Assembly (NCBI GenBank): GCA_003248075.1
Contig: QJYK01000131.1
Span: 1-40,578 of the forward strand
Reading direction: 5' to 3'
Origin: Gemmatimonadota bacterium
Lineage (GTDB): Bacteria > Gemmatimonadota > Gemmatimonadetes > Longimicrobiales > Gaopeijiaceae
DNA: 40,578 nt
The notes beneath the pieces were generated by a model. The model was not told the origin of the DNA and searched no databases. It worked only from the letters and a program-made list of their open reading frames with translations. This document shows, one piece after another, positions 1 to 7,658 of this stretch (position 1 is the first letter of the stretch; each line of letters starts with the position of its first letter). The position numbers and the translations under genes were made by a program.

Positions 1-2
1 CC

Positions 3-479
3 GGGGGGCGCTACGACGACCTGTCGCCCTCCTACTCACCCGATGGACGGAGCATCGCCTTCAACACGAACCGTTTCGGGAGCCCCATTCCCCAGATCAT
101 GGTCATGGACTCGGACGGGGGAGGCGCCGAGCTGTTGTCCCCCTACGAGTACGGCCGAGGCGGATACTACTCCGCCCCCGACTGGTCGCCCGTGGGGGAC
201 CTGGTGGCCTTTCACGGCGCGATCCGCCGGGGCACCTACCACATCCTGGTCGCAGACATGAAGGACCGGGGCCACAGGCTGCGCCAGCTCACCTGGGAGG
301 GAAACAACGAGGACCCGAGCTGGGCTCCCGATGGACGGCACCTGGTCTTCGTCGGCGAGCGCCGGTGGGGCAGAGGGCTTTTCGTGGTCGATGTCGCGAC
401 CGGTCAGCTCCGCTCCTTGGTGACGGGCCGGGACGTCGGCTTACCCGCTTGGTCGCCCTCGCTGACCTCGCTCCATTGA
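3..479 (+). CDS. tolB: TolB, C-terminal part (5' end outside window)
   Basis: This is the last 158 residues of a periplasmic beta-propeller protein, read in the frame that enters the window at base 3. Repeated propeller-blade signatures are visible: SYSPDGRSIAF, DWSPVGDLVAF and SWAPDGRHLVF, each followed by a strand ending in a VMDSDG or VVDVATG type turn. These are WD40-like PD40 repeats, as in TolB. TolB is the periplasmic propeller of the Tol-Pal system, which links outer membrane to peptidoglycan and helps constrict the envelope at division. The assignment rests on the repeats plus the two following genes, pal and cpoB, the usual tol order. No signal peptide or TolB N-terminal domain can be seen because the start is missing. 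Another PD40 propeller protein is the main alternative. Confidence 0.85.
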   Translation, partial: GGRYDDLSPSYSPDGRSIAFNTNRFGSPIPQIMVMDSDGGGAELLSPYEYGRGGYYSAPDWSPVGDLVAFHGAIRRGTYHILVADMKDRGHRLRQLTWEGNNEDPSWAPDGRHLVFVGERRWGRGLFVVDVATGQLRSLVTGRDVGLPAWSPSLTSLH

Positions 480-521
480 ACCTCTGCATCCCGTCCCGCG
501 GTGAGGAGGCCGACAACACCG

Positions 522-550
522 TTGCGCCAGAATGGTTTTCACGGTATATG
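522..550 (+). promoter_or_regulatory. Candidate sigma-70-type promoter for pal
   Basis: TTGCGC (522-527) and TATATG (545-550) are separated by exactly 17 bases in the 183-base gap between tolB and pal. The local AT content is higher than in the surrounding genes. It would give a leader of about 105 bases before the pal start. This is a pattern match only. Confidence 0.4.
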
Positions 551-662
551 CTTCAGGACTTTCCACCTGACAAAAGAGCGTTAGGTTGACTGCGATGCGA
601 AGGCGTCGTGGGAGCTGTGCCGCCGGAGAGTCCACCCGTCGTTCAACCCCGGAGCTAATGGG

Positions 663-1259
663 ATGATCGTCCGCCGTTTCGTCGCGCCCGTCTTGGCCAT
701 GACCCTGATCGTGGCCGCCTGTAAGAAGGAACCGCCGCCGCCTCCTGCCCCCACCGGGCCCAGCGAGGCCGAGCTGGCGCAGCGTAGGGCGGACTCCATC
801 GCCGCCGCAGAGCGCGCGCGTCGCGAGGCAGAGGCCCGAGCCGCCGAGGAGCGGGCCCGCGCCGAGCGCGAGCGCGCTGTCGCGGCCGCCCGAGCGACGC
901 TCGAGGAGATGGTGTACTTCGATTACGACAGGTCCGAGATCCGCCAGGACGCGGCCGCGACCTTGCGCCGAAAGGCGGATATCCTCAGGGCGAGCCCTTC
1001 GGTGCAGCTCCGTGTCGAGGGGCACGCCGACGAGCGCGGCTCGACGGAGTACAACCTGGCGCTGGGTAACCGTCGCGCCGAGGCGGTTCGACAGTTCCTG
1101 GTGGGCTTCGGCCTTGCCGAGAGTCGGTTCAGCATCGTCTCGTACGGCGAGGAACGCCCGATCGAGAGGGCCTCGACGGAGGCGGCCTGGGCGCGGAACC
1201 GGAGAGCCCAGTTCCAGATCACGGCCGGTGCGAACGCCATCAACCCGCCGGGCAGCTGA
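663..1259 (+). CDS. pal: Peptidoglycan-associated lipoprotein Pal
   Basis: This 198-residue outer-membrane lipoprotein anchors the membrane to peptidoglycan and is a TolB partner. A signal peptide ends in the lipobox VAAC with the lipidated Cys near residue 20, followed by a Pro-rich stretch. Residues about 35-80 are an Ala/Arg/Glu-rich segment, probably a long helix acting as a spacer. The C-terminal OmpA-like domain (about 82-190) carries VYFDYDRSEI and the diaminopimelate-binding signature GHADERGSTEYNLALGNRRA, then the closing NRRAQF. A GGAG lies 8 bases before the ATG. The helical spacer is longer than in E. coli Pal. A strong hairpin between this gene and cpoB may separate their expression. 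Confidence 0.95.
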   Translation: MIVRRFVAPVLAMTLIVAACKKEPPPPPAPTGPSEAELAQRRADSIAAAERARREAEARAAEERARAERERAVAAARATLEEMVYFDYDRSEIRQDAAATLRRKADILRASPSVQLRVEGHADERGSTEYNLALGNRRAEAVRQFLVGFGLAESRFSIVSYGEERPIERASTEAAWARNRRAQFQITAGANAINPPGS

Positions 1260-1275
1260 CAGATCCGCTTGGATG

Positions 1276-1305
1276 CCCTCCCCCGCCCGTGCGGGCGGGG
1301 GAGGG
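1276..1305 (+). promoter_or_regulatory. Perfect hairpin covering the cpoB ribosome-binding region
   Basis: A perfect 13-bp stem (1276-1288 pairing with 1293-1305, almost all G-C) closes a GTGC tetraloop. The right arm holds the purine-rich GGGGGAGGG, the only strong Shine-Dalgarno-like sequence near the cpoB start at 1319. No run of T follows, so a classical terminator is less likely. It may instead block cpoB translation, stabilise the pal 3' end, or pause RNA polymerase. Confidence 0.6.
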
Positions 1306-1318
1306 GCACGGGAACCCG

Positions 1319-2092
1319 ATGAGACGTCCGAAACCGATTGCGGCGGCCCGCGTCCTCGTGACGACGGCCGCCGCGCTCACGCTGGTCGGATGCGCGACCA
1401 AGAGCGATATCCGCGACCTCCAGGACGAGGTGCGCGCCCTCGCCGAGCGCCAGGACTCGTTGATGGACGAGCTGCGGCGGGCGACGCTCCAGACGCAGGA
1501 CACGATTCGCGGCCAGTCACTCCAACTCTTCGATTTCCGCGGTGAGATCTTCCGTCAGCTTCGGGAGATCCAGGACGGGCTTGATCGCGTCGAGGCACTG
1601 TCGGGGGAAAACCAGCGTGGGATCGCCGGCGTGCGCGACCAGCTGGCGAACCTGCGTAGGGCGCCTGTAGGAGCGCCCGGGGCCGGTGACACGGTAGGCG
1701 AACCGGTCTCCGGTGGCGGCGACGCGGTAGAGGTCTTCAACGCCGGCGTCGAAGCTCTGCGGCGGGACGCGCTGACGACCGCGCGGGCCGCGTTCGAGTC
1801 GTTCCTGCAGACGTACCCCACCCACGAGCTTGCGCCCGACGGCCGCTTCTACCTCGCGGACATCCTCGAGCGGGAGGGGCGCACCGACGATGCCCTCGCG
1901 GCGTTTCAGGAGATCCCCGCGATCTTCCCCAGCGCGTCACGCGTTCCGGACGCCCTCTATCGCTCGGCGCTGCTCCAGATCGAGCGGGGAGAGACGACGG
2001 CGGCGAGGGCGACCCTGGAGCGTATCATCAACACCTACCCCGGGACCGGGGCGGCGACCCTGGCGGAGGACAGGCTCCGGGAGATCCGGTAG
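1319..2092 (+). CDS. cpoB: Cell division coordinator CpoB (YbgF)
   Basis: This is a 257-residue lipoprotein form of CpoB/YbgF. In E. coli, CpoB works with Tol-Pal and the peptidoglycan synthase PBP1B to couple wall synthesis to outer-membrane constriction. The ATG at 1319 gives a signal peptide ending in the lipobox LVGC. An in-frame GTG at 1289 would add ten polar residues before it and is less likely. Residues about 25-110 form a predicted coiled coil, the trimerisation region. A variable linker follows, then TPR repeats from about residue 140 to the end (AFESFLQTYPTHELAPDGRF, AFQEIPAIFPSASRVPDALY). E. coli CpoB is soluble and periplasmic, so the lipidated form is a lineage difference. Gene order pal-cpoB supports the call. 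Confidence 0.88.
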   Translation: MRRPKPIAAARVLVTTAAALTLVGCATKSDIRDLQDEVRALAERQDSLMDELRRATLQTQDTIRGQSLQLFDFRGEIFRQLREIQDGLDRVEALSGENQRGIAGVRDQLANLRRAPVGAPGAGDTVGEPVSGGGDAVEVFNAGVEALRRDALTTARAAFESFLQTYPTHELAPDGRFYLADILEREGRTDDALAAFQEIPAIFPSASRVPDALYRSALLQIERGETTAARATLERIINTYPGTGAATLAEDRLREIR

Positions 2093-2101
2093 GAGGCCGG
2101 C

Positions 2102-2567
2102 GTGCGCTGCCCGCAGTGCGACGCGACCGAGAACCGGGTGGTGGACACCCGCGCCAGCCGTCACGGTCTGCGGAGCCCGCTTCACGACGTACGAGTACGT
2201 GGAAGAGCGCCCGATCCAGATCCTCAAGCGCTCGGGTTCGGTCGAGGACTTCGATCGGCGCAAGCTGCTGGACAGCATCGCCGTGGCCTGTGCGAAGCGG
2301 CCGGTGTCGGCCACGGCCATGGAGGGCCTCGCCGACGAGATCGAAGACGCCCTGTCGAGATACGCCGGGATCGAGGTGCCCAGCTCGAAGCTGGGCGAAA
2401 TGGTCATGGAAAGGCTGCGGAGCCTCGACCGCGTCGCCTATGTCCGCTACGCGTCGGTGTATCGGAACTTCCAGGACGCCGGTGAGTTCCAAGAGTTCGT
2501 CGACGAGATGACCGAGCGTCAGGAGCGCGAGGCGCTCCGGCGCGTCCAGGAGGAGCTGCCGTTCTGA
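2102..2567 (+). pseudogene. nrdR: NrdR-like repressor with internal deletion and frameshift
   Basis: NrdR represses ribonucleotide reductase genes using an N-terminal zinc ribbon and an ATP-cone. The GTG at 2102 begins a good NrdR start (RCPQCDATENRVVDTR), but this frame departs from the family near base 2160. From about 2167 the next frame gives CGARFTTYEYVEERPIQILK and a complete ATP-cone to the stop at 2567, including VPSSKLGEMVME and DRVAYVRYASVYR. Compared with the E. coli spacing, about 32 bases are missing at the junction. They would encode the arginine-rich stretch and the first Cys of the second CxxC. Ribosomal frameshifting could not restore that Cys. It is either a real inactivating deletion or an assembly error. 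Confidence 0.75.
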
Positions 2568-2613
2568 CGGTCGTCCGCTGCACGGGTATGCCCACCGAGT
2601 CCGTCCTACACCG

Positions 2614-3429
2614 ATGACGCGCCACCGGAATCCCAGGGGTGAGATGCCGTTCCTCGACCACCTCGAGGAGCTACGCTGGCGGATCTTCTGGTCGCTCCTC
2701 GCCGTGGCGATCGGCTCGGTCATCGGATTCGGGCTGGTGTACTATTTCGACCTCCTCGAGGTACTGGTCGCGCCGGTCCGTACGGCACGGCAAGATCCCG
2801 ACTTCCGGCTGATCTACCTGTCGCCGTCCGACCCGTTCATGGTCAAGCTGAAGCTGGGGATCTTCGTCGGGATCATCCTCGCGTTCCCGGTCATCGTCTA
2901 CCAAGCCTGGTCGTTCTTGTCGCCCGCGTTGGAGAAGGACGAGAAGCGCGCGATCGTCCCGGCCCTCTACCTCGGACTCGTTCTGTTCATGGGGGGGGTC
3001 GCGATGGGCTACTTCGCGGCACTCCCGGTCACGCTCGAGTTCTTCAAGCACTTCGAGGGCGAGTCGCTGGCGAGCCAGCTGGAGGTCGGAAAGACGCTGG
3101 GGATGGTGACGAAGCTGCTCCTGGCCTTCGGGGTGGTGTTCGAGCTCCCGGTGGTCGTGATGGTGCTGACGGGCCTCGGGCTCGTCACACCCGAGTTCCT
3201 CCGGTCCAAGAGGAGGCATGCGGCGGTCGCGATGACTGCGCTGGCCAGCCTCATCACGCCGGGTGACGTCGTCACCCTGACCCTGTTGATGATGGTGCCG
3301 CTCCTGCTCCTGTACGAGCTCTCGATCTTCCTATCTGCCGGAATCACGCGTCGCCGGCGAGCGCGCGAGGAGGAGATGGAGCGACATCGGACCATCGGCC
3401 CACCGGAGGGGACGGTGGAGGCTGGATGA
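2614..3429 (+). CDS. tatC: Sec-independent protein translocase TatC
   Basis: TatC is the receptor of the twin-arginine translocase in the inner membrane. It recognises the RR signal peptide and recruits TatA. The 271-residue protein begins with the typical EMPFLDHLEELRWRIFWS and carries the conserved SPSDPF loop, FPVIVYQAWSFLSPAL and the late motif ASLITPGDVVT. Six hydrophobic segments are visible. The C-terminal 30 residues are charged and cytoplasmic. The last codons overlap the lptD start (ATGA at 3426-3429), so the two are probably translated together. tatA is not adjacent; it lies about 9 kb downstream at 12131, so complex components are encoded apart. Confidence 0.97.
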   Translation: MTRHRNPRGEMPFLDHLEELRWRIFWSLLAVAIGSVIGFGLVYYFDLLEVLVAPVRTARQDPDFRLIYLSPSDPFMVKLKLGIFVGIILAFPVIVYQAWSFLSPALEKDEKRAIVPALYLGLVLFMGGVAMGYFAALPVTLEFFKHFEGESLASQLEVGKTLGMVTKLLLAFGVVFELPVVVMVLTGLGLVTPEFLRSKRRHAAVAMTALASLITPGDVVTLTLLMMVPLLLLYELSIFLSAGITRRRRAREEEMERHRTIGPPEGTVEAG

Positions 3430-6299
3430 GCTCTGCCGCGGGGCGGCGGACGCTGGCCGCGGTACGCTTGGCCGTGCTTCTGAGTCTCGGCGTTCCGGGC
3501 CTGACCACGGCACAGGTCACTCCGGACAGCACGCGGGCGCGCATCCTGGAGCGGTTGCAGCGCCTGGGCCGGGCGCCGGGCGCCGACAGCCTACTCTTCG
3601 TCCAGGATTCCTTGCGCCGGGAGGCGGCGCAGCAGGGGCCGGGAAGGGTCTCTGGAGCGGCTGATTCCACGCTCGCCCAATTGGCCCGGCTGACGGGGTA
3701 CTCGCTCACCGAGTACCAGGGGGGTCGCGCGACCTTCGGCGCCAGAGAACGGCGTCTGGTGCTCGAGGCGGCTGAGGGCGAGCGAGCCCGCGTCGACCGC
3801 GAGGGAATGCAGGTCACCGCGGATACGTCCATCACCTTCGACGAGACATCGGGTAGGGTGCGCACGGTCGGTGCCTCCACCTTCACGCCGCCAGAGGGAG
3901 AGGCGGTGGAGTCGAGCGGGCTCGTCTACGACCTCGGGGCTGCACGCGGAAGCGCCTTTGGCGCCAGCTCCACCTACAATCAGGGGGGCACGCGTTGGAT
4001 CGTGCGCGGCGACATGCCGTTCGCCGCCCCCGATTCGAGCTTCATGACCCACGCCATCTTCACGTCTTGCGACCTGACGGTTCCGCACTACCACTTCGAG
4101 ACCGACGAGATCAAGATCGTGGCCGGGAGCGTTCTGGTCGCGAGGCCCGTACGCTTGTACTTCGCGGACGTCCCGGTGGCCTGGCTCCCGTTCATTGCGC
4201 AGAGCCTTTCCCAGGGACGCGCGAGTGGGCTCCTTACGCCCTCGTTCAGCGTGAACGACATCGTCCGTAACTCGACGGGCTATCGGCGACGGATCAGCAA
4301 TCTCGGTTTCTACTGGGCGATGAGCGACTACTCGGACGCGAGCTTCGCGATCGACTGGTTCAGCGAGACGTTCCTGGCTCTCCAGAGCGGAGTGCAGTAC
4401 CGCTTCAACCGGCAGTTTCTCCAGGGTGATTTGAGCTTTCGTCGTTATTGGAGAGCGGATGGTTCGACCGAGCTCTCCCTCACGACCCAACACTCCTGGG
4501 ATCTCGACGAGCGGACGCAGTTTCGGGTGTCGGGCAGCTTCGCGTCGAGCGCGGACTTCGTACGTGAGAACTCTTTCGACCCCCGCGAGGTGACGCAGTC
4601 GATCGACTCACAAGGGGGGCTCAACCGTAGGTTCGGTTGGGGCTCGGTGTCGCTGTCCGCCAATCGCCGGCAGTACCTGTCCGATGATCGGGTGGAGTGG
4701 ACGCTTCCCTCGGCCAACCTCTCCCTCTCCACGGTCACACTGTTCCGAGCCCCGTCCAACCGGGCCCACTTCTGGAACAACATGACGTGGGGTGGCAGTG
4801 CCAACATGAACCGGCGCACGCTCGATCGTGGTCAGGGACCCGTGTTCGACCGCTCCAACATCGACACCGAGAACCTCACCGGGGGCTTCAGCAGCACCCT
4901 GAGCCTGGGAAACCTGTCGTTCGGCCAATCGCTCCGCTCTGAGGAACGGACGGAGCGGGGGATCCCGGACGCATACCTGTTGCTCGGGCCAGGCGCGGCG
5001 CCGGCCGATCTGGTCACCGATGCACCCGCGCGGGCGGTGACGGAGCGGAAGATGTCCTGGGAGCTTCGCCTCGGTTACCAGCAACAGCTCATCGGCTCCA
5101 CGACGCTCACCCCCAACGTGTCGTTGTCCGGCGACATGTTCCAGTCCGACACGTCGGTCCTGGCGTCCAGCTTCGTATCGGCGCCATCGCGGGTGTCGCT
5201 CGGCGCGAGCTTGAAGACGGACCTCTACGGCTTTCTGCCGGGCTTCGGCGGCTACGAGCGGATCCGCCACAAGATCTCTCCCTCTTTCGATTATCGATGG
5301 AGTCCGGAGGTGTCGCCGAGCCAGCTCCAGGTGGACGTCTTCGGCACCCGGGCCATCAGCCCGACCCGCACGCTGGCGATCACGCTGAACCAGACGTTGG
5401 AAGCGAAGCGGGCGGCCCCGGACAGCATTGCAGGCCAGGGCGCCCGGCCCTCGGCGGGGACGGACGCCGAGGGTGCCCTACAGGGCGACACGACCACCGG
5501 GCCCCGGCGGATGGAGCGACCCCAGATCGTGCAGCTCCTCGGCCTACGTACCAGCGTGGTGAACTACGACTTCGTCCGCAGCGACACGCTCGGGAGCTTC
5601 CTGGCCGGGTTCAACACGACGAGACTCTCGAACACGCTCACTTCGGACTTCCTCCAGGGGCTGTCGGTCTCCTTCGATCACGAGCTCTGGGAGGACACCC
5701 AGGAGAACGGCAAGCTCGTTGAGCGGAAGTTCTCCCCGCACCTCTCCCAGCTCAACCTGTCCTTCGCGCTGAGCTCGCGATCGGCGATCTTCCGTCTGTT
5801 CGGCCTGCTTGGCAGGGGTGAGGATCGGCCTTCGACGCAGGAGGACACCGAGGCGGAGACGGACACGTTCGACGACCCCCTCCAGGCCGCCGAGTCTTCC
5901 ATCGTGCCGGGAGCGAGGAATCGTGCGCCCGCCCAGCCCCGCCAGCCCCGGGCCTCCGGGGATCGCTCCTGGCGGGCGAACCTCTCGTACTCGCTCCAGC
6001 GCCCCCGCGGCGAGCGTGCGTCGGAAAGTCAGATGCTCAACGGGACCGTGACGCTACGGCCCACGGACATGTGGGACGTGAGCTGGCGCACCTCGTACGA
6101 CCTGAGCGCAGGGCAGTTCAACGATCACACGATCCGGCTGACCCGCGACCTGCACCGCTGGGAGGCGCATTTCGACTTCCTCCAGACCGCCACGGGTAAT
6201 TGGCAGTTCCGCTTCGAGGTCTCCCTCACCGACAACCGCGACCTGAAGTTCGATTACAGGCAGCGGAACCTGAACGCCGGGCGCCAGGACCTTCGTTGA
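3426..6299 (+). CDS. lptD: LPS-assembly outer-membrane protein LptD-like
   Basis: A 957-residue outer-membrane protein with a signal peptide (cleavage near TTAQ, about residue 30). LptD inserts lipopolysaccharide into the outer leaflet using an N-terminal OstA-like jellyroll and a large C-terminal barrel. The jellyroll part (about 120-260) contains ADTSITFDETSGRV and the diagnostic SCDLTVPHYHFETDEIKI. From about 280 to the end, alternating beta-strand patterns continue (SGLLTPSFS, GVQYRFNRQFLQGDLSF), and the protein closes with a strand near LKFDYRQ. Two low-complexity acidic or Pro-rich loops lie near 660-700 and 800-850. Only one Cys is present, so the disulfides that lock E. coli LptD cannot form. 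LptE and the rest of the Lpt system are not in the window. Confidence 0.88.
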   Translation: MSSAAGRRTLAAVRLAVLLSLGVPGLTTAQVTPDSTRARILERLQRLGRAPGADSLLFVQDSLRREAAQQGPGRVSGAADSTLAQLARLTGYSLTEYQGGRATFGARERRLVLEAAEGERARVDREGMQVTADTSITFDETSGRVRTVGASTFTPPEGEAVESSGLVYDLGAARGSAFGASSTYNQGGTRWIVRGDMPFAAPDSSFMTHAIFTSCDLTVPHYHFETDEIKIVAGSVLVARPVRLYFADVPVAWLPFIAQSLSQGRASGLLTPSFSVNDIVRNSTGYRRRISNLGFYWAMSDYSDASFAIDWFSETFLALQSGVQYRFNRQFLQGDLSFRRYWRADGSTELSLTTQHSWDLDERTQFRVSGSFASSADFVRENSFDPREVTQSIDSQGGLNRRFGWGSVSLSANRRQYLSDDRVEWTLPSANLSLSTVTLFRAPSNRAHFWNNMTWGGSANMNRRTLDRGQGPVFDRSNIDTENLTGGFSSTLSLGNLSFGQSLRSEERTERGIPDAYLLLGPGAAPADLVTDAPARAVTERKMSWELRLGYQQQLIGSTTLTPNVSLSGDMFQSDTSVLASSFVSAPSRVSLGASLKTDLYGFLPGFGGYERIRHKISPSFDYRWSPEVSPSQLQVDVFGTRAISPTRTLAITLNQTLEAKRAAPDSIAGQGARPSAGTDAEGALQGDTTTGPRRMERPQIVQLLGLRTSVVNYDFVRSDTLGSFLAGFNTTRLSNTLTSDFLQGLSVSFDHELWEDTQENGKLVERKFSPHLSQLNLSFALSSRSAIFRLFGLLGRGEDRPSTQEDTEAETDTFDDPLQAAESSIVPGARNRAPAQPRQPRASGDRSWRANLSYSLQRPRGERASESQMLNGTVTLRPTDMWDVSWRTSYDLSAGQFNDHTIRLTRDLHRWEAHFDFLQTATGNWQFRFEVSLTDNRDLKFDYRQRNLNAGRQDLR

Positions 6300-6533
6300 G
6301 CGGAGGCCCGCGCAGGCCCGATTCTCGACACCGAATACCCCCGAGGGGCGGCTCAGGGTGGCGTGTCTCTCGGCATCCGGAGTGTCCCCTGGAGAGGACG
6401 GATCGGTCGGAGCGCATTCGGTCGCAAGACGTTGTATTACAAAGACTTGCGCGTTCGGCACGGGCCATGCTTCAGGTCTGAGTGACGGTATCCGCGAGCC
6501 GGCGGGCCCGTGACATCGACCCGGAGTGGACCC

Positions 6534-7658
6534 ATGAGACGCCCCCTGATCGGAACCATACTGCTGACCGCGGCGGCGCTGGGGTGTGAAAGCGACCCGG
6601 TCCTCGTTCCCGTCGACAACCCCGCGGCGCCCCGGGCGCTCGACGCCTACTACTACGCGGGGGTGGTGAAGGTCACCTGGGAGCTGGGGCCGGGCTGGGA
6701 CGGTGAGACCTTTCGCGTCTATTCCCGCCGTGTCACGGACCCCGACTACTTCTTCATCGCCGAGGTCACGAGCTGTGCGGCCGGGTTGTGCAGCTACGAG
6801 GACCGCAACGTCCTTGCAGGCCAGACCTACGAGTACTACGTGTCGGCCGTCGACCCCACCTCCGGGGTCGAGACTCCGTCGGACTATTCGGTCGAGGTCT
6901 TCGTTCCGCAGCCCGTGCCGCCACCCGTACCGCTCGGGTTGGACGTCGTGGCCCTCGACAACGCGAACTATCTACGCTGGTCGGACAACGCCCGCGACGC
7001 GTCCGACTTCGCCCTGTACCGCGCATATCTGGACAACGGGGACGGCACCGCATTCCTGCTGGGTGAGACGGATTCCGAGGGCTTCCTCGACCTGTTGGCC
7101 GGAAACGGTGGCACCTACACGTACTTCGTCACCGCGGTGGACGACCAGGGCCACGAGAGCGCGCGCGGATCGGCGGCGTCCGGAACGCCACGGCCCGACT
7201 ACCACGGTGAGTGGGTCTACGACTTCTTCGCCCAGCCCCAGCTTTCGGGGTTCCGCTTCCAGGTCGACGAGCTGGCGAACCCCATCGTGTCGGGCGGTGC
7301 CCCGGAGCGCCACTTCCGGCTCGAGACCGACGCGGCGGGTTGGTGGCTGGTGCCCGGTCCCGGCGTGGCGATCTATCCGAACGGGTTCCCGACGACCGCA
7401 CTCAAGTGCGGCGTCGCGGCCGACGACGGGTGCCTGGACGTGACCCGTGCCCCAGGATCCGGGTATGTGCCACAGGACGTGGCCCTGTTCGCCCAGACGA
7501 GCTATGTCATGAGGGTCCCCGGGGACGATGGGCAGACACACTACGGGGTCATCCGCGTGGAGATGCTCGGCTACGACCAGAACGACAATCCGCTGATGAT
7601 CTTCGACTGGGCGTACCAGCTGCAGGCCAACAATCCGGACCTGTCGCCCCCGCGGTAG
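6534..7658 (+). CDS. Lipoprotein with two FN3-like domains and an unassigned C-terminal domain
   Basis: A 374-residue secreted lipoprotein of unknown role. The ATG at 6534 has GGAG 7 bases upstream and gives a signal peptide ending ALGC. This is a slightly unusual lipobox because Leu occupies the position normally held by a small residue. An in-frame GTG at 6510 is less likely. Residues about 28-125 and 128-225 resemble two fibronectin type III beta-sandwiches (VKVTWELG...YEYYVSAVD; YLRWSDNA...YTYFVTAVD). The last 145 residues, from about 230, are rich in aromatic residues and Gly and contain two Cys near CGVAADDGCLDV that could form a disulfide. I do not recognise that domain. The gene stands alone between lptD and a strong hairpin at 7688. 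Confidence 0.8.
   Translation: MRRPLIGTILLTAAALGCESDPVLVPVDNPAAPRALDAYYYAGVVKVTWELGPGWDGETFRVYSRRVTDPDYFFIAEVTSCAAGLCSYEDRNVLAGQTYEYYVSAVDPTSGVETPSDYSVEVFVPQPVPPPVPLGLDVVALDNANYLRWSDNARDASDFALYRAYLDNGDGTAFLLGETDSEGFLDLLAGNGGTYTYFVTAVDDQGHESARGSAASGTPRPDYHGEWVYDFFAQPQLSGFRFQVDELANPIVSGGAPERHFRLETDAAGWWLVPGPGVAIYPNGFPTTALKCGVAADDGCLDVTRAPGSGYVPQDVALFAQTSYVMRVPGDDGQTHYGVIRVEMLGYDQNDNPLMIFDWAYQLQANNPDLSPPR

Follow-up and report, generated by a model that had tools for sequence, protein, structure and literature searches.

The only nrdR gene that we found in this Gemmatimonadota genome lacks 32 bases that its relatives have, and what remains is divided over two reading frames (positions 2102-2567). 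The explanation that we favor, and consider somewhat probable, is a genuine and very recent out-of-frame deletion of 32 bases rather than an error in assembly or sequencing. The window that we analyzed is a whole contig (G000:C19) of 40,578 nt; the assembly it belongs to totals 5,637,846 bases over 344 contigs and is 96.29% complete and 4.65% contaminated. The closest relatives that carry a name are metagenome-assembled genomes of Gemmatimonadetes/Gemmatimonadota.

Results

Frame A (2102-2161) reads MRCPQCDATENRVVDTRASR; beyond that, it no longer resembles NrdR and stays open as far as the stop at 2483. Frame B (2163-2567) begins at residue 32 and reads TVCGARFTTYEYVEERP..., through to the natural stop (Table 1). 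Close relatives read ...VVDTRASRGGRAVRRRRECTVCGARF... across this site; the gene here departs from their frame past the R of ASR and resumes, in the other frame, at TVCGARF. The preliminary description had placed the start and the rest of nrdR in different frames, with about 32 bases missing at 2160-2170. Comparison with relatives agrees: 32 bases are absent, with the boundary at 2161/2162, and the loss takes in codons 21-30 together with two bases of the codon for Cys31, the third zinc cysteine.

Table 1. Features at and around nrdR, in window coordinates
Feature	Positions	Strand	Content or basis
OmpA-domain protein (Pal-like), intact	663..1259	+	Neighbor comparison
TPR protein, upstream neighbor in tol-pal cluster, intact	1289..2092	+	Neighbor comparison
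nrdR 5' part, intact	2102..2161	+	Frame A: GTG start, residues 1-20, first CxxC, base-reading residues D15 and R17 (roles as given in PMC9110341)
Junction	2161..2162	+	32 bases of relatives absent between these bases, by comparison with 118 loci of other genomes
nrdR remainder	2163..2567	+	Frame B: fourth zinc Cys, linker, complete ATP-cone, C-terminal end, stop
tatC, downstream neighbor, intact	2614..3429	+	Neighbor comparison

The change of frame also appears when homology at the site is not used. Segmentation by codon usage puts it at 2172/2173, and the coding segment for nrdR stops 311 bases short of an in-frame stop. There are 32 coding segments on the contig, one of which runs off its end; for 30 of the 31 that end inside, an in-frame stop lies no more than 75 bases away, and nrdR is the exception (the method is blind to breaks near a gene's end). 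The frame split in nrdR exceeds chance.

No single reading frame reaches the cut-off of the whole-protein model for NrdR, TIGR00244. Frame A does not match that model, and it covers positions 1-22 of 42 in the zinc-ribbon model PF22811 with 24.7 bits, below the cut-off of 27.2. Frame B matches TIGR00244 from position 33 on, also below the cut-off (115.8 versus 124.65). The C-terminal ATP-cone that NrdR requires is present in frame B (PF03477, positions 1-87 of 88, E = 4.1e-19). The two CxxC motifs do not share a frame: Cys3 and Cys6 are in frame A, the codon for Cys31 is disrupted, and Cys34 is in frame B. The RRRR phosphate-contact motif (residues 26-29), which is kept in the relatives that we compared, is absent.

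The zinc ligands of NrdR are described as Cys3, 6, 31, and 34; arginines 12, 26-29, and 37 contact the DNA backbone, and Asp15 and Arg17 read the bases, while NrdR without the Zn-ribbon is described as forming dimers only (PMC9110341, PMC12176259). Given these roles, the lesion takes away one zinc ligand as well as four of the six arginines that contact the backbone, and it leaves the ATP-cone out of frame. The preliminary description had likewise listed the Arg-rich DNA-contact stretch and one zinc Cys as lost, and these are RRRR and the codon for Cys31.

A second nrdR, which the preliminary description had proposed to look for, is not in this genome, nor is an intact variant on another contig: searches with the zinc-ribbon model, with the ATP-cone protein, and with DNA each found just this locus. 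At the nrdR loci of other genomes, an uninterrupted zinc ribbon is followed by more than 100 further residues in 118 of 118 cases (not all distinct genomes; some are present in both sources). Of these, 38 came from a profile search of 38 relatives, and 80 (the best of 503) came from scanning GTDB genomes with peptide patterns from the ATP-cone half of the protein, so there was no selection for an intact ribbon in that scan. (We loaded 123 loci; the other five are from this genome, four being the broken gene and one the reductase locus.) Relatives' nrdR is intact, so a lineage-wide feature is ruled out, and the gap is, as far as these sequences indicate, private to this genome. The presence of the missing bases in relatives had been put forward as grounds for rejecting the lesion. 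They are indeed present at all of the loci, but this shows only that the change is private, and privacy does not discriminate a real mutation from an error.

Were it an error, the cell would carry an unbroken gene, with the 32 bases having dropped out during amplification, assembly, or gap closing. We take this to be a serious possibility, if not our preferred one, and the privacy of the gap is among the points in its favor. Others are the setting of the gene in an assembly of 344 contigs, 2.1 kb from a contig end, and the junction itself, where we saw (by eye, judging from relatives) no microhomology. Spontaneous deletions without microhomology are less usual. The missing stretch is also rich in GC and in Arg codons. 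On the other side, no other place in the genome has the junction sequence at 0 mismatches and could have caused a false join, and there is no special hairpin: in four relatives, the DNA of this region folds no better than shuffles do (z of -1.08 to 0.15). This also leaves a hairpin-driven deletion unsupported. Slippage between 9-base direct repeats is ruled out, as relatives have Gly-Gly codons after codon 20 and not that repeat.

A further point against error is the rest of the contig. No frame break besides that in nrdR was found in its 40.6 kb by segmentation, by comparison of neighbors, or by a check of in-frame stops, and we therefore reject generally poor sequence as the cause. The neighbors (the end of a tolB-like gene, the Pal-like, TPR, tatC, and LptD-like genes, and onward) match those of the genus mate G001 over a shared 12.4 kb, with no break in the frame of the coding strand. 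Four stops within coding segments (16635, 17696, 30123, and 32628) are not nonsense mutations, as distinct genes are separated there (AroQ/EF-P, AccB/AccC, PrmC/YlbF, and Tmk/S41 protease).

The order tolB-like, pal-like, TPR, nrdR, tatC, LptD-like (window 1-6299) is shared by G001 and G005, so nrdR is housed among envelope genes and not beside nrdJ. The TPR gene is cpoB/ybgF-like. Farther along, 6510-7658 encodes a protein of 382 amino acids that is conserved in the genus mate (65-68%) and has no Pfam match at 1e-5.

The ATP-cone part of the gene seems to have evolved as an intact gene would. Over 134 codons from 2163, compared to the genus mate, dN is 0.111, dS is 0.782, and dN/dS is about 0.14; dS is near saturation, so these values are rough. 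Against nine further relatives, dN for this genome is similar to the genus mate's own. Among 39 near-invariant columns (conserved in 95% or more of 83 further distinct sequences), one is changed here and one is changed in the intact genus mate. Judged by these comparisons, the ATP-cone shows no decay. This matches the preliminary description, which had called the ATP-cone intact and the lesion either recent or an artifact; that choice holds.

Conservation of the ATP-cone could also mean that a remnant still functions. An internal start at the in-frame GTG at 2199 would give a protein with the ATP-cone only, or ribosomal frameshifting would give a NrdR without the ribbon, and either might act, for example, as a nucleotide-binding dimer; the published truncated NrdR without the Zn-ribbon does make dimers (PMC9110341). 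We consider this very improbable. Recency explains the conservation equally well, and we did not see (by eye) a clear ribosome-binding site before 2199. Even a perfect frameshift product would still be without RRRR and one zinc Cys, and no such form turned up among the 118 loci that come from other genomes.

We found one match to the large subunit of ribonucleotide reductase (RNR) in the genome (C61:21539-23011), which we take to be a class II-like nrdJ; the assignment is by likeness to relatives rather than by a class-specific model. Upstream are a promoter-like TTGACC and two palindromes resembling NrdR boxes, whose starts are 32 apart, corresponding to a 16-bp spacer. (At this locus, L129, both boxes are GC-rich; the first comes directly after TTGAC and the second lies beyond a -10-like element.) So the search for NrdR boxes upstream of nrd genes that had been suggested does turn up a tandem pair at the promoter of an RNR gene, with roughly three turns of the helix from one box to the other. 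The spacer between NrdR boxes is given as 15-16 bp in PMC12051234. A scan of this genome with the plain consensus (12 or more of 16) gave no hits, and the boxes surfaced once the GC-rich form and pairing were allowed.

A similar pair, 31-33 apart, precedes nrdJ in 27 of the 27 upstream regions that we examined from relatives in the same order (we set aside longer reductase genes that were the second in their genome, one locus that starts at the end of its contig, and matches for which no locus was available). Scored by a matrix made without the scored sequence, the pair here is of median strength (32.3, rank 14 of 28 from the bottom; the genus mate has 40.9), which would also be expected of an artifact. 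In 300 shuffles of the region, the score was at most 11.3, a contrast that is somewhat favorable, as the pairs that trained the matrix had been chosen by consensus and the search had been adjusted once the promoters had been seen. Five genomes from families without a NrdR match are a fairer control, yet more distant: the corresponding nrdJ region scores -6.3 to -1.6, and the boxes are missing. We predict that the boxes before nrdJ are NrdR operators and that they are intact here.

Across 395 genomes of the phylum, the TIGR00244 search gave a match in 161, of which 157 were over the cut-off, and no match in 234. Among the matches listed, 117 genomes of this bacterium's own order have a match (115 over the cut-off) and 3 are listed without one; the two under the cut-off, again among those listed, are this genome and G292. 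The other low scorers among the matches listed are of different kinds: the matches in G292 and G343 start at bases 7 and 20 of their contigs and are cut by contig ends, and G140 has a weak hit of another kind. In other families, f4 and f5 among them, many genomes of high completeness have no NrdR match (in two families, many of at least 97%), so members of the phylum can do without the repressor. At family level, NrdR and its boxes seem to go missing together.

Discussion

Three observations point the same way: the boxes appear intact, the ATP-cone has not decayed, and the neighboring genes are sound. Together they suggest that, in this lineage, NrdR control remained in use and under selection up to the very recent past, or else that it continues to this day and the assembly contains an error. 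We acknowledge that a complete lack of decay with undamaged boxes is exactly what an artifact would give, and that a real deletion and an artifact predict identical static sequence. For a real deletion, we count the single tidy lesion, the sound sequence around it, and the dispensability of the gene in other families of the phylum. Against it, we count that it is known from a single genome, in the many-contig assembly and at the GC-rich site near a contig end that we described, and without microhomology.

If the deletion is real, as we favor, then translation from the GTG start would leave the NrdR frame after residue 20, and the zinc ribbon could not form. With RRRR and the third zinc Cys gone and the ATP-cone out of frame, we infer that no functional protein would be made in the cell. 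NrdR would be unable to pair via its zinc ribbons or to bind the boxes, and the class II-like nrdJ would be expected to be derepressed.

In biological terms, a real deletion would be nothing unusual: one draft assembly with a null allele of a repressor that is not essential. It would still be useful, since a widespread repressor would here be seen knocked out in nature before its gene had decayed, and it would let one ask what first follows the loss of dNTP control, in a phylum in which whole families seem to be without NrdR and its boxes. More tentatively, and we are inclined to doubt it, a free-living bacterium may have just dropped the control of its sole class II-like RNR, with the repressor dead and the operators intact, as a first step toward the NrdR-less and box-less state of the other families. 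If the gap is an artifact, it cautions against inferring the loss of NrdR from a single assembly. In both cases, the tandem boxes conserved upstream of nrdJ offer a regulatory prediction that can be put to use in this order. Our literature searches found no paper that joins NrdR with Gemmatimonad, and none that joins NrdR with loss-of-function, suppressor, and dNTP.

Compared to the NrdR family (TIGR00244; PF22811 and PF03477; for example in E. coli and S. coelicolor), residues 1-20 and 32-165 match and the ATP-cone is complete, whereas codons 21-30 and part of 31 are missing and the frame is broken. The site of the gene, between the TPR gene of the tol-pal cluster and tatC, is as in two relatives. 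The RNRs of E. coli belong to classes I and III, unlike the class II-like RNR here. A close parallel is with the nrdR::Kan null mutants of E. coli, in which the repressor is lost, as we propose here (PMC12075136); there, replication forks were 38-50% faster, the authors cite raised transcription of RNR, and the frameshift that the paper describes is in rph. The E. coli allele is an engineered insertion, whereas this one, if real, is a small natural deletion.
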